Origin: a virus
Strand: one strand, 5' to 3'
Virus record (IMG/VR): IMGVR_UViG_3300033145_003233
Span: 186,001 to 250,000 of that record
DNA: 64,000 nt
The translations under genes were made by a program, and so were the position numbers. The notes under the pieces are model-generated. The model had not been told where the DNA came from and searched no databases. It saw nothing but the letters and a program-made list of their open reading frames with translations. Of this stretch, positions 1,508-57,193 are shown piece after piece; positions within the stretch are counted from its first letter, which is position 1, and each line of letters starts with the position of its first letter.

Positions 1508-1645
1508 CTATTGATCTTTCAATTCTCTTATTTTCTTTTGTACATCTCTATGTAATTTTCTCATAAGGAAGAGATGACCACTTATAGCCAACACACATAT
1601 CCCAAAGAACACAACAACTAATATTATCTCATCCTTATTAATAAT
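1508..1645 (-). CDS. Small membrane protein with probable non-ATG start
   Basis: A frame with one strong transmembrane helix (EIILVVVFFGICVLA) and a basic tail ends at 1508. No ATG is available; an ATT at 1645 has AGAGG eight bases upstream and overlaps the end of the upstream gene by eight bases, as most genes here do. The organisation matches the next gene downstream. Start and even reality are uncertain. Confidence 0.4.
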   Translation of the reverse strand: MINKDEIILVVVFFGICVLAISGHLFLMRKLHRDVQKKIRELKDQ

Positions 1646-2117
1646 TAACCTCTTTGAAAGTTTCTACTTCTACTCTATCAAAACTATGATCTTGTCCTAC
1701 TATATCAAATCCCTTTGTTACTATAACTTCTGATTTTTCTTGTCCTTCTACCCCTATATCCGTAATCAACCTTTTTGGTATTAAGCATTTTATTATTTTT
1801 CTACTTGATGAAGTTAAACATAGCCATCGTGTTGCTCCCCCTCTATTCACATGTAAATGATAATAAGCTATATATGATGTCCATCCTCTTTTTGGAGTAT
1901 CGCACCATGTTATCTCTTTTTTGGAAGTATTACCTTCCCTAGGTTTTTGGAGTCTATTTTTTCTTTTATATGGTTTGCCATCATATATAGGTGGAGAGAA
2001 CTGTTTTCTTCCTCCTATAGTTGTTACCTCTACTGCTTTATAAGCAGTTATCATTTCTGGCTTATCTTTCAACCATTCTCTTTTTTGTTTTGCAGTATAT
2101 TTTCTACTAAGGCACAT
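1638..2117 (-). CDS. MCL-family protein, tandem copy 3
   Basis: Third of three tandem paralogues of about 150 residues. Shared features are an MCL start, a basic KYT-xxQK-xEWL segment, PEMITAYK near residue 25, PYKR-x-NRL, SYIAYYHL, an aromatic RW pair, IIKCLIPK and a C-terminal KGFDIV. A fourth, diverged member lies at 18775-19221. The fold and function are unknown; the conserved Cys2 and the IIKCLIPK strand are the most constant parts. The copies are separated by two bases, so they are translated from one message. Confidence 0.8.
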   Translation of the reverse strand: MCLSRKYTAKQKREWLKDKPEMITAYKAVEVTTIGGRKQFSPPIYDGKPYKRKNRLQKPREGNTSKKEITWCDTPKRGWTSYIAYYHLHVNRGGATRWLCLTSSSRKIIKCLIPKRLITDIGVEGQEKSEVIVTKGFDIVGQDHSFDRVEVETFKEVNY

Positions 2118-2119
2118 CT

Positions 2120-2566
2120 TTAATTCTCCTGAAAAACTTCATCTTCTCCTACTATCTCAAATCCTTTAGCTATTATAACTTTTGAATGATAGTATCCTTC
2201 TTCTCCTATCTCTGTAATAAGATTCTTTGGTATTAAACATTTTATTATTTTTCTATATGTTGGTAAACAACATGTCCATCGTTGTGCTGCTTCTTTATCT
2301 GCATATAAGTGATAATAAGCTATATATGAAGTTTCGTCTCTTCTTGGGTTCTTGTAACGTACTGATATATTTTTATCTTTATCTTTATTAGTATGAAGTC
2401 TATTTATTCTTTTGTATGGTTCATCACAAAATATAAGTGGATAGAATTTTATTTTTCCTTCTTCAGTTCTTACTGTCATTATTACTTTATAGGCAGTTAT
2501 CATCTCTGGTTTATCTTTCAACCATTCTTCTTTTTGTTTCTTCGTATATTTTACCCTTAAGCACAT
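2120..2566 (-). CDS. MCL-family protein, tandem copy 2
   Basis: Paralogue of the flanking genes, with MCL start, KPEMITAYK, PYKR-NRL, SYIAYYHL, RW, IIKCLIPK and KGFEIV blocks in the same order. Divergence is greatest in the central charged linker (residues 60-75). Lies two bases from each neighbour. No known domain is recognised. Confidence 0.8.
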   Translation of the reverse strand: MCLRVKYTKKQKEEWLKDKPEMITAYKVIMTVRTEEGKIKFYPLIFCDEPYKRINRLHTNKDKDKNISVRYKNPRRDETSYIAYYHLYADKEAAQRWTCCLPTYRKIIKCLIPKNLITEIGEEGYYHSKVIIAKGFEIVGEDEVFQEN

Positions 2567-2568
2567 CT

Positions 2569-3018
2569 TTAATTCTCCTGAAAATGCCTATCTTGTTCTA
2601 CTATGTCAAATCCTTTTGTTACTATAACCACTACATCATTTGCACCTTCTATCCCTATCTCTGTAACAAACCTCTTTGGTATTAAACATTTTATTATTGA
2701 TCTGCTCACGATAGAATGTCGTAACCATCGTTGTGCTGATTCTTTATCTACATATAAATGAAAATAAGCTATATATGAGGATCTGCTTTGGCATGTAGTA
2801 TCATAACATACGGGAGTTCTCTTATACCAATCATTCTTCTTATGTTTACGAAGTCTATTTTTTCTTTTATATGGTTTATAACCATATACGATTGGATAGA
2901 ATTTTACCTGTCCGTCTTTATTTTTCACATCTACTGCTTTATAGGCAGTTATCATTTCAGGTTGATTTTTCAACCATTCTTCTTTTCTTCTTTTCGTATA
3001 TCTTCTATTTAGGCACAT
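2569..3018 (-). CDS. MCL-family protein, tandem copy 1
   Basis: First copy in transcription order. It keeps all blocks of the family: MCL, QPEMITAYKAV, PYKRKNRL, SYIAYFHL, AQRW, IIKCLIPK and KGFDIV. It has an extra Cys pair in the linker. It follows a small membrane protein gene by two bases. Tandem amplification suggests diversifying selection or dosage; function is unknown. Confidence 0.8.
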   Translation of the reverse strand: MCLNRRYTKRRKEEWLKNQPEMITAYKAVDVKNKDGQVKFYPIVYGYKPYKRKNRLRKHKKNDWYKRTPVCYDTTCQSRSSYIAYFHLYVDKESAQRWLRHSIVSRSIIKCLIPKRFVTEIGIEGANDVVVIVTKGFDIVEQDRHFQEN

Positions 3019-8458: not shown

Positions 8459-8992
8459 TTACATATTTTCTATATCTTCTGCATCATTCAATCTCTGCCA
8501 AAACTCATATTCAAGTTTATGCATTGACCATTGAAAAGCTTGTATCAAACATGGTTTGGGAGCAGAGAATAAATCATCTTTCTTCATTTTTCTAATTGCT
8601 GCTATGGCATCCTTTTGAATTGCCTCGCCAACATATTTCCCTCTTATTTCTTCTATACACCCTTCTTTAATTTCCGCAAGTGTATGAATTTCTCCCTTGG
8701 GGTCTGGGTAATCAGAGAATGCCATTTGAGCATCTACTCTTTTCTTGACTATTTTTCCAGTCTCGTTAGTATAGACATTATAGGCTGTTCCTTCTTTTGG
8801 CACAAAGCCATATCTTTTTTTGCAGGTTTTTTGACTCTGACGACTTGATCCATGAGAGGTATATTCTAACGATGCTCCTGTACCAAAGCAGACGCATCCA
8901 TGGAATATCCTTATACCTTTTTCTACATTTTTCCATACTCTCACAGTTTCTATGTCACTATCTCTCGTTACAAATACGTCAAATTCTTTCAT
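8459..8992 (-). CDS. FDVY-TRD family protein, copy C
   Basis: One of four paralogues (others 9014-9568, 9571-10116, 14931-15494). Shared blocks are a start strand FDV-x-x-TRD, a VW ... GI-x-x-FHGC motif, YGF-x-P-x-x-GTAYNVYT, a V-x-x-x-VD-x-x-M-x-FSDYP block and a helical C-terminus ending in an aromatic W-x-x-x-E-x-x-FW segment. Conserved Cys in FHGC and another before YGF could bind metal. I do not recognise the fold. Repeated amplification implies selection, for example against host factors. Confidence 0.8.
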   Translation of the reverse strand: MKEFDVFVTRDSDIETVRVWKNVEKGIRIFHGCVCFGTGASLEYTSHGSSRQSQKTCKKRYGFVPKEGTAYNVYTNETGKIVKKRVDAQMAFSDYPDPKGEIHTLAEIKEGCIEEIRGKYVGEAIQKDAIAAIRKMKKDDLFSAPKPCLIQAFQWSMHKLEYEFWQRLNDAEDIENM

Positions 8993-9013
8993 CGTTATTT
9001 CCTTCCTTGTTTT

Positions 9014-9568
9014 TTATTCATTAAATGGTTTTAGATTTGGTGCTTTATTAATTGATTCCCAGAAATCAGTTCCTTCTTCTGTCCTCCACCATGCAAAGCC
9101 ATGTCTGATATTAGCTCCTCGTCCGTATTGAGACGGACATAGACTCCTTCTTGTAAGTTTTTCAATTCCATTGATTGCTTTCAATCTTTTTTTCTTAGAG
9201 AGTTTCTTAACTCCCAGTTCTCTTATACATGCTCTTTGAAGTACTTTCAGGGTAATTTTTCTACTCTCTGCCTGAGATGACGGATAATCAGAGAAGTCCA
9301 TTTCTGTATCTATCCTTTCTCTGATAACCTTACCTTCTTTGGTATAGACATTATAGGCAGTCCCGCGTTTGGGCTTAAATCCATATTTTGCCTTACAATC
9401 TTCAGTTGATATATTTCTACACCCCTGTTTATAAGCATATTGATGATATTTCGCATTGCCATATTCTATGCAGCCATGGAACTTACGAATTCCAACTGTT
9501 ACAGGCCATACTGCCACATTACCAAAAGAATAAGTATCTCTTGTTAAATATACATCAAATTCTCTCAT
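9014..9568 (-). CDS. FDVY-TRD family protein, copy B
   Basis: Same block order as its neighbours: FDVYLTRD, GIRKFHGC, YGFKPKRGTAYNVYT, RVDTEM-like DFSDYP, and a C-terminal FAWW segment. It is the most diverged of the tandem trio in the C-terminal helices. It is preceded by GGTAAATAACG before ATG, a moderate ribosome site. Confidence 0.8.
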   Translation of the reverse strand: MREFDVYLTRDTYSFGNVAVWPVTVGIRKFHGCIEYGNAKYHQYAYKQGCRNISTEDCKAKYGFKPKRGTAYNVYTKEGKVIRERIDTEMDFSDYPSSQAESRKITLKVLQRACIRELGVKKLSKKKRLKAINGIEKLTRRSLCPSQYGRGANIRHGFAWWRTEEGTDFWESINKAPNLKPFNE

Positions 9569-9570
9569 CG

Positions 9571-10116
9571 TTATTTACCTTTCTTATCCTTTGCGAAACT
9601 AATATCTTCCCAGAAATCACGTCCCAATTCATTAGAACTCCATCCAAAAGCACCCAATAAGTTAGGTGATGCAGAATGAAATAGATCCTCTTTCTTCAGT
9701 TTTTTGATAGCAGCTACTGCTTTTTCTCTTATTTTATCAGAGATATTTTTTCTATTTATTTCCTTTATACATCTCTCTTTAATTTCTGAAAATGTATAAC
9801 TTTTTCCATTTTTAGGGCCTGGGTAATCTGAGAATTCCATTTCTTGATCTACTCTTTCCTTGACTATTTTCCCAGTCTTAGTTGTATAGACATTATAAGC
9901 GGTTCCTCCTCTTGGCAAGAATCCGTATCTATCCCGGCAGATTTCTATAGAGATGTGTTTTACTCCTTTATCACTATAATCATCAGTGCGTCTTCCTGAT
10001 CCGAAATAAGTACATCCATGCCACTTTGTTATACCTGTTTCAATATCTTCCCATACGCCTACATCATCACAATGGGAATTTCTTGTTAAATATACATCAA
10101 ATTGTTTCTTCATCAT
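9571..10116 (-). CDS. FDVY-TRD family protein, copy A
   Basis: First of the tandem trio in transcription order. It is closest to the copy at 14931-15494; their start regions and the DNA upstream of them, including the last codons of the preceding genes, are nearly identical. Family blocks are intact. Function unknown. Confidence 0.8.
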   Translation of the reverse strand: MMKKQFDVYLTRNSHCDDVGVWEDIETGITKWHGCTYFGSGRRTDDYSDKGVKHISIEICRDRYGFLPRGGTAYNVYTTKTGKIVKERVDQEMEFSDYPGPKNGKSYTFSEIKERCIKEINRKNISDKIREKAVAAIKKLKKEDLFHSASPNLLGAFGWSSNELGRDFWEDISFAKDKKGK

Positions 10117-14930: not shown

Positions 14931-15494
14931 TTATTCTTGATGCTCCTTTTTCCATTTTGCACAACTAATATTTGACCAGAATGAGCTTCTCAGATCGTGC
15001 TCCATCTCATGCTCTCCCCATGCAAAAGCAGATACAAGGCTAGGTGCTGGATGGTCGAATAAATCTTTCCATTTTAATGCCTTAATAGCATCCAGTGCTT
15101 CTCTCGTTCTTTGCGTAGAGATTCTCTTTCCGATTATCTCTTTTATACACCCTTCTTTAACTTCTCTGAGTGTATATTTTCTCCCATTCTTAGGGTCTGG
15201 ATAATCCGAGTATACCATTTCGGTATCAACTCTTTTACGGATTCTTCTTCCAGTCTTACTTGTATAAACATTATAGGCTGTTCCTTCTTCTGGATAAAAT
15301 CCATATCTTTCCAGACAGATCATGGCAGAGATCTCTACTCCTCCGCGAGAGCGAAAATTATCTATGTTTCGTCCTGACCCAAAGCAGGTACACCCATGCC
15401 ATTTTGTTATACCTGTTTCAATATCTTCCCATACTTTTACGTCATTGCTCTGGGTGTCTCTTGTTACGTATACATCAAATTGTTTCTTCATCAT
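14931..15494 (-). CDS. FDVY-TRD family protein, copy D
   Basis: Fourth member, about 4.8 kb upstream of the tandem trio. ATG 15494 (MMKKQFD) matches the start of the copy at 9571-10116. Blocks FDVYVTRD, GITKWHGC, YGFYPEEGTAYNVYT, FSDYP-like YSDYP and the final FW segment are intact. The duplicated DNA extends into the upstream gene's last codons. Confidence 0.8.
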   Translation of the reverse strand: MMKKQFDVYVTRDTQSNDVKVWEDIETGITKWHGCTCFGSGRNIDNFRSRGGVEISAMICLERYGFYPEEGTAYNVYTSKTGRRIRKRVDTEMVYSDYPDPKNGRKYTLREVKEGCIKEIIGKRISTQRTREALDAIKALKWKDLFDHPAPSLVSAFAWGEHEMEHDLRSSFWSNISCAKWKKEHQE

Positions 15495-16308
15495 TATTTC
15501 CTTTCTCATTTATAATTTTCCAGTATTTAGCATATTCAGCTATTTGTTCTTCCAGTTTAATTGGTTGATCATGCATTCGTCTATGGTAGCTTGTAAGGAT
15601 AATACCTGACATATCATCAGCATGGTGTACACCTTTAGCTTCGAACCATACTTTTAAAGGACCTACTTCCCATAGTCCCCATTCATTCCTTATCCACCTA
15701 CCCATACAATGATGCATTTCCACAGTAAATGTTTCTTCGTCTGTATTTTTTATTTCTTCTCTATCAATATCTTCCAAATGAGTATCCAGAGCTACTATTG
15801 CTTCTTCAAGAGTTGTTGGTATTTCTATCGCCAACTTTTCCGGTTCTGGTTGTTTATCCATTCTCAAAGCTTCTCTTGCTCTTTTAATACGCATGTAACC
15901 TATCGAAGCATTATATACGACTTGTTGTGGTGCTACTTCTATTCCTCCTCTAGGCACAGTAGCATCATCTATAGTGAGGTACATATCGAGGAGGTATCTT
16001 AATGCATTTCTTAGTATTTTTATTTCTTCTACTGCATCAAAATCATCTTTCCGATCATGTATTCCTCTATGATTAGAGCATAGCAGTCCTGGATATGTTC
16101 TTATATGATTTCCGCAATAGTGATATGTCGAGTTATGATTCTCACTTATTTCTATCATAAGCTTTCTAAGATTATCATTATCTACAGAGAGACTTTTATG
16201 TTCTTTAACCATTCGTGAGGCACAGTGAAGACAATATCCCTCTACGCTAACATATTGTCCTGTTTCCTCTTTGCATTTTTTACATTTTTTGCTTTTTGCT
16301 TCAGGCAT
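15475..16308 (-). CDS. Zinc ribbon plus DUF6794-like domain (277 aa)
   Basis: Residues 9-29 carry CKKC ... CLHC. The C-terminal 110 residues read TLEEAI-x-x-LD ... MHHCMGRWIRNEWGLWE ... WFEAKG-x-HHADDMS-x-II ... EEQIAEYAKYW, which I recognise as the DUF6794 pattern found in phages and bacteria. The biochemical role is unknown. The last codons overlap the FDVY-TRD copy D start region. Confidence 0.72.
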   Translation of the reverse strand: MPEAKSKKCKKCKEETGQYVSVEGYCLHCASRMVKEHKSLSVDNDNLRKLMIEISENHNSTYHYCGNHIRTYPGLLCSNHRGIHDRKDDFDAVEEIKILRNALRYLLDMYLTIDDATVPRGGIEVAPQQVVYNASIGYMRIKRAREALRMDKQPEPEKLAIEIPTTLEEAIVALDTHLEDIDREEIKNTDEETFTVEMHHCMGRWIRNEWGLWEVGPLKVWFEAKGVHHADDMSGIILTSYHRRMHDQPIKLEEQIAEYAKYWKIINEKGNNDEETI

Positions 16309-18774: not shown

Positions 18775-19221
18775 TTATCCTACAATAGAGGTTTTATCTT
18801 CTGGGTCTGGCATCCACATTTTTTTAGTCACAATACACATATATCCGTCCTGATCTCCTATAGCTCTGATATATTTTTTAGGTATTTGAACCTTCACTAC
18901 CACGAACCTTGTAGTAGGATATGGGAACATCATATTTTTATATCTTGATGCCCCATATTTAGTTTTAAAGCAATGATAATAAGGAAGATATCTGAAGTCA
19001 GCTTTGCCAAAACGATAACGAAAAACTCTCATTCTTTTTCTTGTTGGGGCCTCGTTCCATCCTGTCTCAAAAGCTCCAATTTGTAGAATAGGAGCATAGT
19101 ATACTCCCTGGCCTGGAACAACATTCTTTACCCTCACTAACTTATAAGCTGTAAAAGTATCAGGAAGCTTTTCCTTCGCTTTTCTTTCTTCTTTCATTGA
19201 TAATTTTGTATCTATGCACAT
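18775..19221 (-). CDS. Diverged MCL-family protein
   Basis: Shares with the tandem trio at 1638-3018 the MCI/MCL start, a basic segment, FTAYKLV, a P-x-x-x-x-G region, YHCF, an aromatic segment with Arg, VVKVQIPKKYI-x-x-IG and IVTKK. Conservation of order over 148 residues makes common descent likely. It lies about 16 kb upstream of the others, so the family spread by dispersed as well as tandem duplication. Confidence 0.72.
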   Translation of the reverse strand: MCIDTKLSMKEERKAKEKLPDTFTAYKLVRVKNVVPGQGVYYAPILQIGAFETGWNEAPTRKRMRVFRYRFGKADFRYLPYYHCFKTKYGASRYKNMMFPYPTTRFVVVKVQIPKKYIRAIGDQDGYMCIVTKKMWMPDPEDKTSIVG

Positions 19222-19523: not shown

Positions 19524-19669
19524 TCGGCGCGGGTGGATTCGAACACACCGTCCTTCTAGTTGTTCCACACAGGCTTAACTAGTATTTCCTTGTCTCTCTT
19601 GATGCCCAAGTTGCAACTTAGGCGAGAGTGACTGTGTGGCTAACTGCTCTACCGCTGAGCTACGCGCCG
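19524..19669 (-). ncRNA. tRNA-like RNA with large structured insert and pseudoknot
   Basis: The ends form a perfect 7-bp acceptor stem (CGGCGCG with CGCGCCG), then T-A, a canonical D arm (GCTC-AGCGGTA-GAGC) and, near the 3' end, a T arm with loop TTCGAAT and G53-C61, but with one extra T in the 5' strand of the stem. Where a tRNA has about 25 bases, there are 95. These contain CCACACAG (19639-19632), a two-part hairpin (CTCTC/GAGAG enclosing GCCTAAG/CTTGGGC with a TTGCAA loop), and a CTAGTT/AACTAG hairpin (19582-19556). The loop of that hairpin contains CTGTGTGG, which is complementary to CCACACAG, so a pseudoknot can form. No CCA is encoded. It is not a normal tRNA; function unknown. Confidence 0.75.
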
Positions 19670-19683
19670 TCTTAACTTTTTAA

Positions 19684-20136
19684 TTACTGATAATTTTCAT
19701 CTTGAATAATTCTATATCTATGAAAATATTCTAATGGTCTTAGCATATGATCTTCTCTATCCCAGAAGCCCCAATTTCTTCTTTTGGGCCAAAATAATAA
19801 CAACGTCCAAGCTCCTGCTTTTGGTATATCTAAATAATGTCTATCTTCTGCTTTAGCTCTCCATACTTCCCATGCTTTAACTTCTATCTCTTTTTTCCCA
19901 TCAGGGCTATCCTTATCAGGCACTACATTTTTATATCCACCTTTTAATATACAAGAGATAAGGTCAGAACCATGATCGTGAAAAAATCTTCTGTCATCTG
20001 ATTTCAACCAATGATGCAATCTAATAGAGAAACCAAAGAATAAGAATGTCCATCTATAGAGGTAAGGGCATTCAGGTTTACCTAATGCCTCTCTCCATCT
20101 TATTTGGAATTTCTTAAATTTTCTATAAGGTTTCAT
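19684..20136 (-). CDS. Cupin-like protein (150 aa)
   Basis: RFFHDHG supplies an H-x-H pair; LISCILKGGY, EVKAWEVWRAKAEDRHYLDIP and AWTLLLFWPKRRNWGFWD follow in the order of a cupin barrel as seen in a phage-encoded cupin family. A divalent metal may be bound by the HDH and later His. No substrate can be named. The gene overlaps the next by one base. Confidence 0.65.
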   Translation of the reverse strand: MKPYRKFKKFQIRWREALGKPECPYLYRWTFLFFGFSIRLHHWLKSDDRRFFHDHGSDLISCILKGGYKNVVPDKDSPDGKKEIEVKAWEVWRAKAEDRHYLDIPKAGAWTLLLFWPKRRNWGFWDREDHMLRPLEYFHRYRIIQDENYQ

Positions 20137-23892: not shown

Positions 23893-24333
23893 TTAGTGTA
23901 CAAAAATTTCTACTTCTTGATCTGCTCTCATTTCTGAGCCATCTCTTTTCGTTACCTGTGTAATAATAGTCATCTTAGATAGTCCTGTTTCTTGTGGTGT
24001 CCATTGAAGAAAAGAAACAAGCCCTTCGTCTTTTATATGTTCTACTTCCATCGTCATTCCTTCGGGACGATTAAAAACAGAGATAGTAGGTTTAGAACCA
24101 TTTGAGATAAAGGCCGGAGATAGAGGAATCTTATAAGTAATCCCTACTTGCAAATTTAGATTCCCATTTTCTATTTTAACTACTTGAGTATTGGCTGAGG
24201 TCTCGAGTGTCTCTTTGTCTTCTTTTATCTTATCTCTCACCAATTTAGCGGCTGGGACAAGCAAGCCTATAAGAATGGCTACGCATCCCATTACCGTCAA
24301 AAGTTCTACTATTGTAAAGCCTTTTCTCTTCAT
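23893..24333 (-). CDS. Pseudopilin-like protein with Ig-like domain, copy B
   Basis: From ATG 24333 it starts MKRKGFTIVELLTVMGCVAI: a prepilin peptidase site G-F with Glu at mature position 5 and a hydrophobic helix, the class III signal of type II secretion pseudopilins and type IV pilins. The remaining 100 residues look like a single Ig-like domain ending in FVH, with LQWTPQETGLSKM. This start sequence style is common in Planctomycetota, Lentisphaerae and Verrucomicrobia. Sister of 24341-24769. Confidence 0.8.
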   Translation of the reverse strand: MKRKGFTIVELLTVMGCVAILIGLLVPAAKLVRDKIKEDKETLETSANTQVVKIENGNLNLQVGITYKIPLSPAFISNGSKPTISVFNRPEGMTMEVEHIKDEGLVSFLQWTPQETGLSKMTIITQVTKRDGSEMRADQEVEIFVH

Positions 24334-24340
24334 AGTTTTC

Positions 24341-24769
24341 CTAATGCACAAAAACTTCTACTATCCGTTCTTCTTTCATCTCTGAACCGTCTCTTTTCGT
24401 TGACTGTGTAACAACAATCATTTTAGATAGTCCTGTTTCCTGTGGTGTCCAATACAGATAAGAAAAGACAGATCCTCCATCTCCCTCTTCCACACCTATA
24501 GATATTCCTGCTGGTGGATCTTTGATGGACATGGTAGGAGCAGAACCATCTGAGACAAAAGATGGAGATAAAAGAATCTTGTAAGTAATCCCTACTTTCA
24601 GATTCAGATTTCCATTTTCTATCTGTGCTACTTGGGCATTATCTTGTATCTCAGCCTCTTCTACTGCCTGCCGGATTTTGTTACAGGCAGGAGCTAATAT
24701 CGCTGCCAGCATAGCCACTATAGCTATCAGTACCATCAACTCAATTAATGTAAAACCTTTCTTCTTCAT
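24341..24769 (-). CDS. Pseudopilin-like protein with Ig-like domain, copy A
   Basis: From ATG 24769 it starts MKKKGFTLIELMVLIAIVAM, again a prepilin cleavage site and Glu5. The C-terminal domain is about 60% identical to copy B by eye, sharing NGNLNL, VGITYKI, LSPSF, YWTPQETGLSKM and VEVFVH. The WTP motif also occurs in the Ig-like repeats of the phosphatase at 61215-62864. A virion or surface display role is possible. Confidence 0.8.
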   Translation of the reverse strand: MKKKGFTLIELMVLIAIVAMLAAILAPACNKIRQAVEEAEIQDNAQVAQIENGNLNLKVGITYKILLSPSFVSDGSAPTMSIKDPPAGISIGVEEGDGGSVFSYLYWTPQETGLSKMIVVTQSTKRDGSEMKEERIVEVFVH

Positions 24770-24782
24770 AACTTGTCCCTTT

Positions 24783-25805
24783 CTAATTTTCTTTCCAAGC
24801 AAAAAACTTTCCTGATTTCCATGGTTCTAATCTTCCTACCCGACATTTAAAACCACAACTTTCTAACACATCCGTTATAACCTCTGGACGATGATTCTCT
24901 AGCCTCGTATGATATTCTCCTGCTATTTTTCTAACAGAAGTAGAAAGAAAATCTTTGTCCCAATTTTCAAATATCTCATATTCAGAACCTTCTGCATTAA
25001 TTTTTACGTAATCGAGATGATCTATGTTTTGTTCTTCTAAAAATTCATTAATATTAATAACCGATATCTCTTCTGTTCCAAGAGGTTCGAAATCAGAATG
25101 CGAAAAGAATGTAGCGCAACAGGATGCCCAGTAAACATTCATTGGTTTCTTTTCTGTAGTATCTCCTATAGCGCAATTAAACGGCACTATAGCTCTACCA
25201 TAAGAACTATCTATTCCTATATTTTTCAACAGATAATGATAAGTAGAGGGAACTGCTTCAACAGCATAAATTTTAGATGCCTCACGCAAAGATGCTAGAA
25301 GACTGAAAAAGCCATAGTGTGCCCCTATATCTAAACAGACATCTCCCTTTTCGATTGGGCAGGGATCTCCTGTGTAAGAATTATCGAATAGAACTAGTTC
25401 ATAAGTAAGCCAAGCTGGATCATCTGGAGCAGTATATAATTCATGAGTTATTATTTCATATTCTTTTTGTTTAGGACCATTATGTTCTTTATATATTACT
25501 TCGTTATTTTGATCTTCAATTTTTACTACTATATTATTAAGGTATCTGATATATATACGTATCTCTTGAAAACCTGATTTGTCAAATTCTATTGCTTGTT
25601 TAATAAGAAGAATGTTTGTGGTCTCATCTCTTAGACAAATATGGCACATATCTTTATCATCAGAGGATGCAAGAAAATAGAACATAGGAGTTACATCTTC
25701 TCTTAAAAAAGGAAAACATAAAAAAACTACTTTTGTGGTAGTTCCATTCTCCAAATTTTCTTGGATAGACTTAGTACTTCCATTAATTTTCTTACAACTT
25801 ATCAT
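24783..25805 (-). CDS. FkbM-family methyltransferase
   Basis: Residues 153-170 (KGDVCLDIGAHYGFFSLL) are the SAM-binding motif I of FkbM methyltransferases; YAVEAVP, DYVKINAEGSEYEI and EYH follow in family order. The N-terminal 140 residues are an extra beta-rich domain of unknown role. Such enzymes O-methylate sugars or lipids. Position beside the pseudopilins suggests modification of a surface glycan, which is inference. Confidence 0.85.
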   Translation of the reverse strand: MISCKKINGSTKSIQENLENGTTTKVVFLCFPFLREDVTPMFYFLASSDDKDMCHICLRDETTNILLIKQAIEFDKSGFQEIRIYIRYLNNIVVKIEDQNNEVIYKEHNGPKQKEYEIITHELYTAPDDPAWLTYELVLFDNSYTGDPCPIEKGDVCLDIGAHYGFFSLLASLREASKIYAVEAVPSTYHYLLKNIGIDSSYGRAIVPFNCAIGDTTEKKPMNVYWASCCATFFSHSDFEPLGTEEISVININEFLEEQNIDHLDYVKINAEGSEYEIFENWDKDFLSTSVRKIAGEYHTRLENHRPEVITDVLESCGFKCRVGRLEPWKSGKFFAWKEN

Positions 25806-39597: not shown

Positions 39598-40812
39598 TTA
39601 CAAATCATCAGCAAATCTAGTAGCCGCAGATGATGGTAAATATCCTAGTAAAACATTTGCCTTTGGTCTGAAAGCAGTAAACATTTTCCTACGAGAAAGT
39701 GAACTAAAATCATCAAGTGCTGCATGAAACTTATTTTTCCTCATTAAGAAAATATATTTTATTGACTCATTAAACTTCCTTTTACCAAAAGGTTGAGGAC
39801 GTTGAGCTAGATAAAGTCCTAACTCTTTATCAGACATATGTTCAGTAAGGTCATACATATCCTCTACCTCAGAAACAAATGACTCCAACTTTTGAGAAAG
39901 AATCCAAACGATAGTATCGAAGTCTTTTTCTAGTTCCTCAGGAAGTTCCTTTTTCACTTCGTCCAAATCGTCACCATTCAATAATAAATCCCAGATAGCT
40001 AATGGAGTTACCTTTGAAATCAGTTTATGGATACGAACATACTCTGCACCTTTTACCTTTATACGAACACCGCTCTCAAAACGGATAACATATCCTTCTT
40101 CATTTTGAGTTAGAGTCTCAGCCTTTTCCACAATAGATGTCATGTCGTCAAAATCATGCTTAGGCACAAATGCTACTCTTAACTTCTTGCTTGCCTCTAC
40201 TTGAAGATCTTCATAAGAGTACTCTACACCTTGAGGATCAAAAATAGCCAACAACACTAACCCTGAGAAATTGTAATTTACAACTATTTTATTCTCTGGA
40301 TAAATTATCTCGAACAGATAAGTGTTCTTTTTCCAAGCTGACCGAAGGACAACATGATTGCTGATTATCCATTCCTCAGCCCACTTAGCTTGTTCAGATG
40401 TAAAAGAGCCACACGTAGCAACTCTCCATGCTCCCTCGTAGTAGAACATGATTCCAAGAGAACCATCCATTTTTTCAGTAACAGTGAATTCTGATTCTAT
40501 AATAGATGCAGAACCTGATTCTATTTCACCGAAATTAAAAAACTTCATGAAAGGAGAAGCAACTACCACCTTATTTTTAAGGTCCAGAATTAGACCTCTT
40601 GACATTAGAGTAAAGACATTCCAGTTTCTTCCAGCAACACAGTCAATAGAATACTTGAACAAAGCCAAATGTGGAAAATCTGGATGGTAATTAACATTGA
40701 TATTTCCTCTGTTAATTTCCTCGAACAGTCCATCAACAAGGGCTTGAAACTCCATTACTCTAGATGGATGTTTCTTTCCATGTTTTAATAATATTTCCAT
40801 TACGTCATTCAT
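39598..40812 (-). CDS. T4 Rnl1-like RNA ligase (404 aa)
   Basis: EKMDGSLG at residues 113-120 contains the nucleotidyl lysine (K114) of motif I; MSRGLIL and KFFNFGE precede it as in T4 RnlA, EGYVIRF is motif IV and KVKGAEYV motif V. Length is close to T4 Rnl1 (374). The enzyme adenylates itself and seals single-stranded RNA breaks, in T4 those made in tRNA by host anticodon nucleases. It lies alone between two terminators. No polynucleotide kinase/phosphatase is visible nearby. Confidence 0.92.
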   Translation of the reverse strand: MNDVMEILLKHGKKHPSRVMEFQALVDGLFEEINRGNINVNYHPDFPHLALFKYSIDCVAGRNWNVFTLMSRGLILDLKNKVVVASPFMKFFNFGEIESGSASIIESEFTVTEKMDGSLGIMFYYEGAWRVATCGSFTSEQAKWAEEWIISNHVVLRSAWKKNTYLFEIIYPENKIVVNYNFSGLVLLAIFDPQGVEYSYEDLQVEASKKLRVAFVPKHDFDDMTSIVEKAETLTQNEEGYVIRFESGVRIKVKGAEYVRIHKLISKVTPLAIWDLLLNGDDLDEVKKELPEELEKDFDTIVWILSQKLESFVSEVEDMYDLTEHMSDKELGLYLAQRPQPFGKRKFNESIKYIFLMRKNKFHAALDDFSSLSRRKMFTAFRPKANVLLGYLPSSAATRFADDL

Positions 40813-42068: not shown

Positions 42069-43823
42069 TTACAATTTTCCCGCAGCGAACTCAGAAAGAA
42101 TACGAGGCACATTAGAATCTAGCCCTGCTATGTCCATCATTCCTGCATCACTAGGATCAGCAATAGTGAACTTATTTGCTGCAAAAGCCATAACAACAAG
42201 TTTCGCATTCTTGTTAAACTTCTTTCTGTATCTCTTCAATGCCTCAAACGGATGCGCATATCCAGTATTTGTCTCATTATCTGTTAAAACAACAAACACA
42301 TCGACATCCATTTCGTTATCCATGGCATATTGCATAGGCAAAGAACAATCCGTACTACTAAACGGAAGATTAGAAGTCCTTCTGATAACAGTATCAAGAC
42401 TATCTTTCGCTGTGATATTCAACGGAACGAAAGTACGTGAGAAACCCATCATCGCATAATTCTTTTCCGTCCTAGCAATAGTCATAGCCACAACTGATGC
42501 TGCTTCACGAGGAACTATTCCGCTTGGATGATCAAAAGAACCCCAACCACTAGAAGCCATTGAAGCACTAACATCAATTCCTAACAAGAATTTCTTTCCT
42601 GTTGGTTCAACATAGTTGAACGCCTTATAAAAAGCCTCTTCCAAAGCATCTTTAATAGCAGACACAGGACTCCATGAAGTTCTCATACCACTACCCTTGC
42701 TATAAGTCTTAAGGGCCAACATAATCGTCATTGGATGGAGACGACTCTTCTTCAATGCTTCCTCATTTGTAATCTTACCAATAGCCAATGAAGTCTCATC
42801 ACTCAATGACTTCAAAAGTCCTGAAGAAGTCATTTGACCCAAGTTACGAATTAAAGCACCTATAGGCATCTTAGGAAGCAATGCTTTTTGTACCTTTTTT
42901 TCATTCCTGAATTGAGGAGGAATAGACTCTCTTGTTAGACCATAAGCTGTAACCAACTTCACCACTTCATTAATGTCAGTTGAGTTCATACTTTGCTCAT
43001 GTGCCCAAATATACTTCAGAGTTCCATCTTTCAATGCCTCTAGTTCAGAAACTAAAAGACCAGGACTTTCTTGAGTTTTTCCAGAAGCCTCAGAATCTTT
43101 TGCTCTCTTTACAAGAACCTCTTCGCTTGTTACTCCATGTGTCGCATAATGGAAAATAGTAGCATGCTCATCAGAAGGAGTAGTCAATGCCCTACCATTT
43201 CTAGCAGGCTTTCCATCAGCAGTAGGGCGAGAGATTCTGCACATACGAAGCAGATCCCCATGAGTCAACCTTTGCCCACCAACTGAACGACCAGGGTACT
43301 TGCAAATTTGATATGCTAATTTAACAGCATCTTTTTCAGTGTACCATCTTCCCATTGCTCTAAGCATACCCTTAGCCTTATGCCCTTCTTTCAATGAAAG
43401 AACAGCAAGCACCCACTCAAAAAGAGCAGTTGAAAAACGAGCAACCTTAGGCATCATCTTATTAGCGTATGCTCTTGTCTTGTCGTCTCCGTGAACACTG
43501 CAAACTGCCAATGCAAAAATAGCAGGAGCATTCTTAACAGCACGACCTTCATCGCTAATTTGAACGATAGTATCTACCGTACGCTTACTATCTAATTTCA
43601 GACAACGCAAAATGACATCATAGTTTTCCATAGTCAGTTCGCGAGCTGAAGCATAATAAGTGCCATTCTCATTCCCTATAATTAAGAAACGATTTAGCCT
43701 CGTCCAGTCATCAGCCGTAAACACAAAACCACCTGAACGGTTTTCGACTTGCGTACTCTTAGCTCTTTTTCTTTGGTTAGTTTGAGGGTTTGCTACAATA
43801 TTAGCATAATTTTTCTCAGCCAT
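42069..43823 (-). CDS. rsr: Ro60/TROVE-vWA RNA-binding protein (584 aa)
   Basis: The N-terminal 390 residues match the TROVE ring of helices (DDWTRLNRFLIIGNENGTYY, CLKLDSKRTVDTIVQISDEG, HLKL-type and EEVLVKR segments), which binds Y RNAs and misfolded RNA. The C-terminal vWA-like domain has an intact MIDAS: D-x-S-x-S (DVSASMAS), a Thr in SSTDCS and Asp in LTDNETN. Bacterial homologues (Rsr) work with Y RNAs in rRNA and tRNA processing. It has its own consensus promoter at 43888-43915. A phage-encoded copy is unusual but the family is clear. Confidence 0.92.
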   Translation of the reverse strand: MAEKNYANIVANPQTNQRKRAKSTQVENRSGGFVFTADDWTRLNRFLIIGNENGTYYASARELTMENYDVILRCLKLDSKRTVDTIVQISDEGRAVKNAPAIFALAVCSVHGDDKTRAYANKMMPKVARFSTALFEWVLAVLSLKEGHKAKGMLRAMGRWYTEKDAVKLAYQICKYPGRSVGGQRLTHGDLLRMCRISRPTADGKPARNGRALTTPSDEHATIFHYATHGVTSEEVLVKRAKDSEASGKTQESPGLLVSELEALKDGTLKYIWAHEQSMNSTDINEVVKLVTAYGLTRESIPPQFRNEKKVQKALLPKMPIGALIRNLGQMTSSGLLKSLSDETSLAIGKITNEEALKKSRLHPMTIMLALKTYSKGSGMRTSWSPVSAIKDALEEAFYKAFNYVEPTGKKFLLGIDVSASMASSGWGSFDHPSGIVPREAASVVAMTIARTEKNYAMMGFSRTFVPLNITAKDSLDTVIRRTSNLPFSSTDCSLPMQYAMDNEMDVDVFVVLTDNETNTGYAHPFEALKRYRKKFNKNAKLVVMAFAANKFTIADPSDAGMMDIAGLDSNVPRILSEFAAGKL

Positions 43824-55332: not shown

Positions 55333-56430
55333 TTATTCGTCAGAGAAGTCTACTACTTCCCCCTTCGCCTCTTTTTTATTCTTCATAAGAAGATAATCTT
55401 CATTAAGCATTTTTAGAATAGCCCTACCGCAAGACCATTCTTCTCTTTCTTTTAGAGAGCAAATAACTATACCTTCTCTAATATGGTCAGCACCATTTCT
55501 TTTAGCGAGAAAAGAAGGGCCTGTAGAAAGGCCTTTCATCAAATTCATATTAAATGACCCCTCGATAATAAGAGGAACCATAGGGACAGAAAAAGCCTTA
55601 CATAGATTATTAAATAGTTCCCAATCAACATACTTACCATCTATCTTCAATGAAAATGCCACAAAGTTAAGAGAATTAGGTTTTCCATAATGCATAGATT
55701 TATGTCCACCTCTTACTCTTCCATACACTTCTCCGTATAGAGTAGCACTTTTCTTGCAGCCATAACGAGGATCATTACCTAAAGCCGAAAGAAGATATTT
55801 AACTGACTCAAGAGTAAAGGGATACCAGTAGCTATTAGAAAGCATTTCTTCATCTGTAGGCATTTTTCTCTTAACCCTATGAGAACCACCTTTCCACTCT
55901 AGTTCTCCTTCCTCAGATTTGAAGAAGCCTATCCTACAATTAGTCCCATCTATTTTTTCTGTAACACAAACTTCCTCTCCCTTTTCAAAAATATCAGGGA
56001 AATTTCTGATATTCTCTATGTCTGTATATTTAGTAAACAGAGGGTCATCGGGAGCAGCATCTCCAGCCATAGCTCTTAGAGGTGGTTCGTATTTAGTAAT
56101 TCCATAATGTTCAGCTACATCTGTCCCTACTTCCCAATTTTCTTCGTTATTTATAATCAGTCCGTAAGACATCGCCCCACGAAGTCTGGCACACCTAACG
56201 CGATTGTGAAGTTTACCTCCGAGATAGTTACCCACTCCAAGTCTCTCTACAAGTTCGAGAGGAAGCACAGCATCAACAGGGATATAAACAACAATATCTC
56301 CTACTTTATAATCTCCCTTGCCAACTATGCACTCCCATCCCTTGACAACGGCAATTTCTAGCCTGTCAGCATTCTCGTGCGAGAGAACTTCTTTTATATC
56401 ACAAACTTCTACTATTAAACTACTGCTCAT
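55333..56430 (-). CDS. RNA ligase, DRB0094/Rnl5-like (365 aa)
   Basis: ATG 56430 has AGGA six bases upstream. The N-terminal 110 residues (VEVCDIKEVLSHENADRLEI, WECIVGKGDYKVGDIVVYIP) match the OB-like module of the Deinococcus RNA ligase clade; VTEKIDGTNCRIGF holds the nucleotidyl lysine (about K159), and LYGEVYG and EGIVI correspond to later motifs. Enzymes of this clade seal nicks in duplex RNA. It is a second, distinct ligase besides 39598-40812. Confidence 0.88.
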   Translation of the reverse strand: MSSSLIVEVCDIKEVLSHENADRLEIAVVKGWECIVGKGDYKVGDIVVYIPVDAVLPLELVERLGVGNYLGGKLHNRVRCARLRGAMSYGLIINNEENWEVGTDVAEHYGITKYEPPLRAMAGDAAPDDPLFTKYTDIENIRNFPDIFEKGEEVCVTEKIDGTNCRIGFFKSEEGELEWKGGSHRVKRKMPTDEEMLSNSYWYPFTLESVKYLLSALGNDPRYGCKKSATLYGEVYGRVRGGHKSMHYGKPNSLNFVAFSLKIDGKYVDWELFNNLCKAFSVPMVPLIIEGSFNMNLMKGLSTGPSFLAKRNGADHIREGIVICSLKEREEWSCGRAILKMLNEDYLLMKNKKEAKGEVVDFSDE

Positions 56431-57193
56431 CCTTCTTCCTTTCTTCATCCTTCAATCTTTTTTTTGCTTCATCAACTGTTTCAGAGATATCTTCCCATTG
56501 AGCATCTCTATCATCTGGAGAGCCACAAAAACTAATCTCTGAGAGTATAGCTCCAAAAACCTCAAAAACAGTAAATCTATTTTTACCTTCTACTACTGGC
56601 TCTTCATTCCCACATGTGTTCTCGGGTCTAATTATAAAATCTTCATTTAATTTAAGAGGCAAATGTTTCATTCTATACAAAGGAGTAAACTCTATTGCAA
56701 AACTAGTATAGGGCATATCAGGATCGAATGGTTCTTCTTCACTCGGTTCGTGTTTGCCCCATCCATGTACACCAACAGCAATACTTACCTCATTAACATC
56801 ATCATCTTTAGGTTCGGTTAATTTCTTACCGAACATCGGGTCTTTATCATTTTTATGTTTTTCATAATAAAGAGCATAATCAAATTGATCGATATCCCAG
56901 CTACAAAAGATATAGTCTAAATCTTCTTCACTATCTGGAGGACAATCTTTTTTAATTTCTTCCAAAAATGGTTCTAACGGAAATCTTCCAAGATGAGAAC
57001 TAAAAATAATTTCCATTATTTCCTCTTCCTCTTCTATTATAGAGAAAAAGTCCAGCAAGGTAAAATCTTCATCTATTTCTACAACATCGCTAAGATGAGA
57101 AATTATACTCTCTACCTTCTCATGAACATAATTTTTATGCCCAGGAATATAGTTATTTGTATAAAATATTCCACTTTTCGTCAAAGTTATCAT
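56420..57193 (-). CDS. Acidic hypothetical protein (257 aa)
   Basis: Rich in Asp and Glu with blocks EEEEEIMEI, PPDSEEDLD and EPSEEEPFDPD. Aromatic residues between. No family recognised. It is preceded by a TTTTCCAGACAA box 26 bases upstream, so it heads a unit with the RNA ligase. Confidence 0.68.
   Translation of the reverse strand: MITLTKSGIFYTNNYIPGHKNYVHEKVESIISHLSDVVEIDEDFTLLDFFSIIEEEEEIMEIIFSSHLGRFPLEPFLEEIKKDCPPDSEEDLDYIFCSWDIDQFDYALYYEKHKNDKDPMFGKKLTEPKDDDVNEVSIAVGVHGWGKHEPSEEEPFDPDMPYTSFAIEFTPLYRMKHLPLKLNEDFIIRPENTCGNEEPVVEGKNRFTVFEVFGAILSEISFCGSPDDRDAQWEDISETVDEAKKRLKDEERKKDEQ

Follow-up and report, generated by a model that had tools for sequence, protein, structure and literature searches.

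The tRNA-like RNA and its neighbourhood

The window, i.e. the whole stretch of 64,000 nucleotides analysed here, corresponds to bases 186001-250000 of a DNA virus record of 547,943 bases. It bears a tRNA-like RNA gene next to a small cupin gene on the same strand, with the following features.

19524-19669, minus strand: complete tRNA-like RNA of 146 nt, with C1 at 19669 and A73 at 19524; CCA is not encoded
19663-19669, minus strand: acceptor stem, 5' strand CGGCGCG (C1-G72), 7/7 pairs with 19525-19531
19646-19660, minus strand: D arm GCUC-AGCGGUA-GAGC, read from the sequence and also a helix of the homologue core alignment
19640-19644, minus strand: anticodon stem, 5' strand GUUAG (blind stem parse); UUAG pairs with CUAG, and 27-43 is G.A
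19565-19639, minus strand: 75-nt insert located in the 5' part of the anticodon loop
19632-19639, minus strand: insert-closing helix, 5' strand CCACACAG, nested, paired with 19565-19572 in the MFE fold
19594-19628, minus strand: internal hairpin CUCUC-GCCUAAGUUGCAACUUGGGC-AUCAA-GAGAG (MFE fold)
19565-19572, minus strand: insert-closing helix, 3' strand CUGUGUGG, paired with 19632-19639 in the MFE fold
19560-19564, minus strand: AACAA, a 5-nt 3' bulge that exposes the inferred anticodon AAC (Val) together with positions 37-38
19555-19559, minus strand: anticodon stem, 3' strand CUAGA (stem parse)
19532-19549, minus strand: T arm GGUG(U)G-UUCGAAU-CCACC, in which a single U is bulged; several homologues also have bulges in the T stem
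19525-19531, minus strand: acceptor stem, 3' strand CGCGCCG, followed by the discriminator A73 at 19524
19684-20136, minus strand: cupin gene, 150 aa, with its stop codon 14 nt upstream of the RNA

The original prediction of a tRNA-like RNA at this place proved right and its coordinates exact, the acceptor stem, D arm and T arm being canonical except for one bulged U. U8 and A9 stand between the acceptor stem and the D arm, and the variable region is AGGAC. The RNA was also correctly described as no ordinary tRNA: it has the three arms and A73 and lacks a 7-nt anticodon loop with U33. Its anticodon loop comprises 80 nt, and a G stands 5' of AAC. The position of AACAA is that of NACAU and similar sequences in the homologues described below, one of which (L065) likewise has AACAA.

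The predicted minimum free energy is -51.2 kcal/mol (z = -2.8), and our own tRNA-like scanner returned this RNA as the sole candidate on both strands of the 64-kb window. As the same architecture recurs in dozens of related loci, we do not regard it as a chance structure. Neither ARAGORN without introns nor Rfam detected it, and ARAGORN in intron mode reported a tRNA-Val(cac) with a 52-nt insert. At permissive E-values Rfam gave chance matches only at this locus, and blastn against annotated phages gave no match. An Rfam search with the window RNA and the inserted RNAs of five relatives gave no hit to introns of group I or II, to tRNA or to tmRNA, in agreement with the initial statement that the RNA is not a group I intron. 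A self-splicing intron was rejected, as Rfam recognised no intron core in the window RNA or its relatives.

The TTGCAA-containing hairpin, the CTAGTT/AACTAG complementarity and the 8-nt complementarity between 19632-19639 and 19565-19572 that had been pointed out are all found in the sequence, but the pseudoknot proposed from them is not supported. It is not required, because the 8-bp complementarity forms a nested helix that closes the insert and stacks on the anticodon stem UUAG/CUAG. The closing helix is followed by AACAA, and one as good arose in 1 of 1000 shuffles. The CUAGUU/AACUAG hairpin would break UUAG/CUAG, and it competes with the nested architecture of the homologues. A search of IMG/VR for close homologues of the window insert, whose covariation would bear on the pseudoknot, found none.

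The neighbouring gene encodes a monocupin, for which AlphaFold gives a cupin fold with a pLDDT of 94. It matches phrog_4786, 'cysteine dioxygenase', in PHROGs (1e-24). Its relatives show high conservation, and the invariant residues of the family include H41, H53, H55 and H100. The protein has no sequence match to any solved structure and no NCBIfam or PADLOC match, and its nearest folds among solved structures, searched with Foldseek, are generic metal cupins. The fold led to a generic metal cupin only, with no specific assignment of function.

The window genome carries 29 ordinary tRNAs, tRNA-Val(UAC) among them, in arrays lying 22-34 kb and about 140 kb off. The phage encodes a CCA-adding enzyme, and a search for a PF00133-type synthetase in it found none. 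Two RNA ligases lie within the window, at 39598-40812 and 55333-56448 (T4 Rnl1-like; RNA_ligase/PHA02142 OB-fold). Tandem and dispersed paralogous genes to which no function was assigned, and two adjacent type IV pilin-like proteins, unusual for a phage, are encoded at 1638-3018 and 18775-19221, at 8459-10116 and 14931-15509, and at 23893-24802.

A Ro60 gene (TROVE/vWA) is present at 42069-43823, and bacterial Y RNAs possess tRNA-like domains. The RNA might accordingly have been a tRNA-mimic Y RNA of the phage Ro60 protein, as the original prediction had offered. The YrlA covariance model (Rfam RF02553) does not match the window RNA, however, and the Ro60 gene lies 22 kb away from it. Ro60 is found in only 3 of the 24 other records with both the RNA and the cupin, several of these records being incomplete. 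We consider this explanation highly improbable.

A family of cupin-linked RNAs

We scanned 87 distinct cupin loci, part of them by script and part by eye, and the counts below take in the members found by eye; many of the IMG/VR contigs in this survey are fragments. At no fewer than 62 of the 87 loci a tRNA-like RNA lies on the strand of the cupin gene. For the 45 loci at which both ends were measured, the median distance between RNA and cupin gene comes to 42 nt, and in 29 of them the two are no more than 100 nt apart. In the extreme cases the RNA overlaps the cupin stop codon (L023) or its end meets the cupin start codon (L012, L031 and L033). At about 25 of the 87 loci, chiefly the most distant ones, no RNA could be assigned to a class. 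The family has two traits, an adjacent cupin gene on the same strand and a Val, Phe or Ile anticodon located 2 nt 5' of the 3' strand of the anticodon stem in a disrupted loop. The window RNA shows both, the second as AACAA-CUAG, and is apparently one member of an undescribed RNA family. The cupins of the other family phages share only about 30-67% identity with that of the window.

The family extends to cultured phages of Caulobacter, Brevundimonas and Rhizobium, where the RNA genes fall in gaps of the annotation. In Caulobacter phage CcrColossus and Brevundimonas phage Bajun the unannotated gap upstream of the cupin gene is occupied by two RNAs in tandem, those of CcrColossus lying between about 241.4 and 242.0 kb of its record; one RNA lies beside the cupin gene of Rhizobium phage RHph_Y1_11, and in the cultured Caulobacter phage CcrPW the RNA genes occupy unannotated gaps as they do in CcrColossus. 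The published annotation of CcrColossus lists 28 tRNAs as its only functional RNAs (PMC3556154).

The linkage was also examined in the reciprocal direction. A DNA pattern derived from the RNA alone (ACAT, AGGTCGG, GTTCGANTC) retrieved 51 IMG/VR loci. Among those with a parsable acceptor stem, five of six long forms (158-244 nt) adjoin a cupin gene, two of them new (L091 and L125), and none of the normal-length tRNAs does. Eight loci are in named gammaproteobacterial genomes, and in the two that were scanned (L215 and L217) no tRNA-like RNA was found by the cupin homologue. tRNA-like RNAs are present in L212-L214, filed under archaeal and Bacilli/Mycoplasmatota MAGs, which look like phage contigs binned into cellular MAGs. 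From these sequence comparisons we are almost certain that the cupin-linked tRNA-like RNA family and its linkage are real. A search of the open-access literature found no description of such RNAs.

Other genes occur near the cupin. In 11 loci the gene of an N-methyltransferase (RsmD/TRM5-TYW2-like type) adjoins the start of the cupin gene or overlaps with it, and a PTH2-like protein is encoded within 2.5 kb of the cupin in 5 loci. A search for PTH2 in the window genome found it absent, which places it outside the core module. Both neighbours fit tRNA chemistry, and neither is universal.

The inserts of the family range from 0 to about 200 nt and are located in the D loop (L004, L009, L010, L066, L150 and L151), the anticodon loop or the variable region (L015, L057, L061 and L065). 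Among inserts of up to 80 nt, most have a helix atop the anticodon stem that closes the insert and leaves the anticodon in a 3' bulge, and in most the closing helix is better than those of shuffled sequences. Examples are GCUAGGC-UUCG-GCCUAGC followed by CACAU in L144, an RNA of 91 nt with a single UUCG hairpin, and GGUC/GACC followed by AACAC in L010. MFE folds of the isolated anticodon regions of L015, L016, L051 and L144 likewise contain a closing helix and a 3'-bulged anticodon. In L016, L017, L050 and L051 all 8 variable pairs of the closing helix have changed on both sides, and its cap CC(A/G)UGACGAUGG is constant.

Several further elements were noticed during the survey. The variable-region inserts of L015, L016, L017, L050, L051, L060 and L061 share a UUCUAGA-like motif and hairpins with GNRA-like caps. 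In L133 and L134 the place of the tRNA-like RNA, within 300 nt upstream of the cupin gene, is taken by another RNA, which is structured, conserved and about 150 nt long (AGUGCUUACGGUGUG ... CACACCGCAAGCACU). Two suppressor-like tRNAs with the anticodon CUA lie directly upstream of the cupin-linked RNA (L012, 2556-2709; L013, 5765-5918). In L133, L134, L135 and L179 the cupin start codon has a TAG after it in the same frame (ATGAAATTCACATAG...), a sequence feature that suggests TAG recoding in these phages.

Other phage tRNAs with inserts just 3' of the anticodon were seen in L060 (1398-1578 and 1685-1863), L056 (2208-2385 and 6238-6397) and L061 (3801-3983). A ACGGAAUUGUUCACCGAAACGAAC-like start recurs in several of these inserts, and two of them appear to hold a second set of tRNA-like hairpins; they may represent small tRNA introns of a class of their own. 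In addition, tRNA-like genes in which GGAAACAUACAGCAA-type inserts replace the anticodon arm were found in L056 (5204-5700), L060 (around 2300 and 5500) and L065 (6100-6200).

Identity elements and the anticodon loop

The anticodon stem was chosen from base pairing only, with no regard to the sequence between its strands. Of the 26 non-canonical loops parsed in this way, 16 have AC at positions 35-36, where chance would give about 1.6, and 6 have the triplet GAA. Read by eye, the whole set comprises 47 loci with Val NAC (used in the tree below), 8 with Phe GAA and 7 with Ile GAU/UAU. Of the 33 curated Val-type cores, 31 have A73. In bacteria the identity sets are A73, A35 and C36 for Val, A73, A35 and U36 for Ile, and A73, G34, A35 and A36 for Phe, so that A35 and A73 are common to the three (PMC9976931). 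The window RNA has A35, C36 and A73 of the Val set, its anticodon AAC having been placed by homology.

The stems of the family have been kept as pairs while their sequences changed. In the acceptor, anticodon and T stems changes are seen on both sides, and pairing is kept in 97.7% of cells as against at most 54.5% in slid controls, although the rows of this core alignment (A3) were trimmed to structure, which biases pair counts upward. The acceptor pairs vary on both sides across 31 homologues. C1-G72 was considered as a defining mark of the family and dropped; it is common (21/26), and members with A1-U72, G1-C72 or U1-A72 exist. G3-C70 and U4-A69, acceptor pairs that aid E. coli ValRS, are not conserved.

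The class of the RNA follows the cupin tree, with 5 changes compared with 14.4 in shuffled assignments, none of 200 shuffles being as low. Such tracking is not expected of an RNA evolving independently of the protein, and shared descent of linked genes contributes to it. Linkage alone does not prove that the RNA and the cupin interact.

What the members do not share is a loop suited to decoding. The anticodon loop has 6 nt in L183, 7 nt without U33 in L137, L148 and L153, 8 nt in L004, L009, L012, L019 and L033, and 9 nt in L014 and L138; in other members it has 11, 12, 16 or 25 nt or is larger still, reaching about 200 nt. Only 14 of the 26 non-canonical loops have a U immediately 5' of the triplet. 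A canonical 7-nt loop with U33 occurs in only a handful of members (L031, L151, L154, L155 and L184), and the majority of the insert-free members still lack a normal loop. Judged by these comparisons, selection seems to hold synthetase identity and not decoding, and we find it rather probable that the RNAs are chargeable yet non-decoding. Against this reading stand the canonical 7-nt, U33-containing loops of those few members and the missing conservation of G3-C70 and U4-A69.

The same data bear on the possibility that the window RNA is an intron-bearing tRNA-Val, whose small intron would be cut by a nuclease and sealed by the phage RNA ligases to give a normal decoding tRNA. Archaeal tRNAs can bear several introns, several members of the family can be parsed by ARAGORN in intron mode, and the phage encodes two RNA ligases. 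However, Rfam recognises no group I or II intron, and the loop sizes are graded from 6, 8, 9, 11, 12, 16 and 25 nt upwards, the low end being too short for introns. No common boundary is seen, and excision would not restore U33 in many members. Moreover, loops are abnormal even in most members without an insert, and the phage already has an ordinary tRNA-Val. We regard this explanation as very unlikely.

A similarly low probability is given to two further roles that the original prediction had named, a decoy (or sponge) directed at host anticodon nucleases or other tRNA-targeting defences, and an RNA that the phage RNA ligases would repair. The presence of two ligases within the window would fit a ligase substrate, and phage tRNAs counter tRNA-cleaving defences (PMC11555353). 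A decoy should retain the normal loop that nucleases recognise, however, and here this loop is destroyed. Neither a decoy nor a ligase substrate would explain the restriction to Val, Ile and Phe or the tight pairing with the cupin, a linkage that the original prediction did not mention.

Possible function and comparison with known systems

The reading that we consider best, and whose chance of being correct we place at about even, is a chargeable, ribosome-incompetent tRNA serving the cupin. The RNAs of the family would keep the features for processing, folding and aminoacylation, decoding being disabled by the expansion of the anticodon loop, D loop or variable region. Once transcribed, the window RNA would be matured by tRNA-processing enzymes and receive CCA from the phage's own CCA-adding enzyme. 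As the phage has this enzyme and no PF00133-type synthetase, host ValRS would charge the RNA, with valine and through A35, C36 and A73. The 80-nt anticodon loop would presumably not be accepted by the ribosome, so that the Val-RNA would be kept out of translation.

The reaction of the cupin in this scheme is largely speculative. The charged RNA may be a carrier that presents an aminoacyl group (Val, Ile or Phe, depending on the phage) for oxidation or transfer by the cupin, or the RNA itself may be bound or modified by it. That the RNA is an aminoacyl carrier or a substrate of the cupin is a tentative proposal. Equally tentative is the wider picture of a two-part module of giant and other large phages for tRNA-borne amino-acid chemistry outside translation, in which a ribosome-incompetent tRNA charged with Val, Ile or Phe would be the carrier for a cupin oxygenase, accompanied in some phages by a methyltransferase. 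The three amino acids are hydrophobic and are read by anticodons containing A35; it would be natural, though it is unproven, to picture the cupin as an enzyme accepting hydrophobic aminoacyl groups.

Alternatively, the RNA may belong to a cupin ribonucleoprotein, either as a component or as the substrate that is modified, its anticodon letters serving recognition by protein and not charging. Co-evolution of RNA and cupin speaks for this, as does the N-methyltransferase at the cupin start in 11 loci. Three anticodons that match three synthetase identity sets, together with A73, fit charging better, and we hold such a ribonucleoprotein to be rather unlikely.

The usual explanations for phage-encoded tRNAs are codon supply and resistance to tRNA-cutting defences. 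A tRNA-like gene that keeps synthetase identity and loses decoding makes a non-translational role of a charged phage tRNA directly testable, including in cultured Caulobacter phages. Dozens of distantly related viruses have an RNA of this kind adjoining the same oxygenase-like gene, which points to an undescribed non-translational use of tRNA. Standard annotation overlooks this whole class of RNA genes, as seen for ARAGORN and Rfam and, by the published account, for tRNAscan-SE in CcrColossus.

Several known RNAs resemble the window RNA in part. It shares with tmRNA the combination of tRNA-like ends and a large insert, but it retains the D stem and anticodon stem, has no tmRNA match and needs no reading frame. 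Split and intron-bearing tRNAs likewise contain additional sequence inside the tRNA arms, whereas the present family lacks an intron signature, has graded loop sizes and would often give no decoding loop upon excision. YrlA is a tRNA-like RNA of bacteria and phages with a non-translational role; unlike it, the window RNA has no RF02553 match, and most of its relatives occur without Ro60. In Staphylococcus a non-decoding tRNA-Gly is used in another synthesis, that of cell-wall bridges. It resembles the window RNA in being charged, as we predict here, but withheld from translation, and differs in keeping a normal size, the RNAs of the family having large, variable inserts and a paired cupin. Finally, TLS-Val of turnip yellow mosaic virus is a tRNA mimic that has kept valine identity (A35 and C36) and is charged by ValRS (PMC9976931, PMC4810235). 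The window RNA is likewise a virus-encoded tRNA mimic with these Val identity elements, its charging being a prediction. TLS-Val forms the pseudoknotted 3' terminus of the genome of a plant RNA virus, whereas the window RNA is encoded by its own gene in a dsDNA phage and has a true acceptor stem, a bulged anticodon and a cupin partner.
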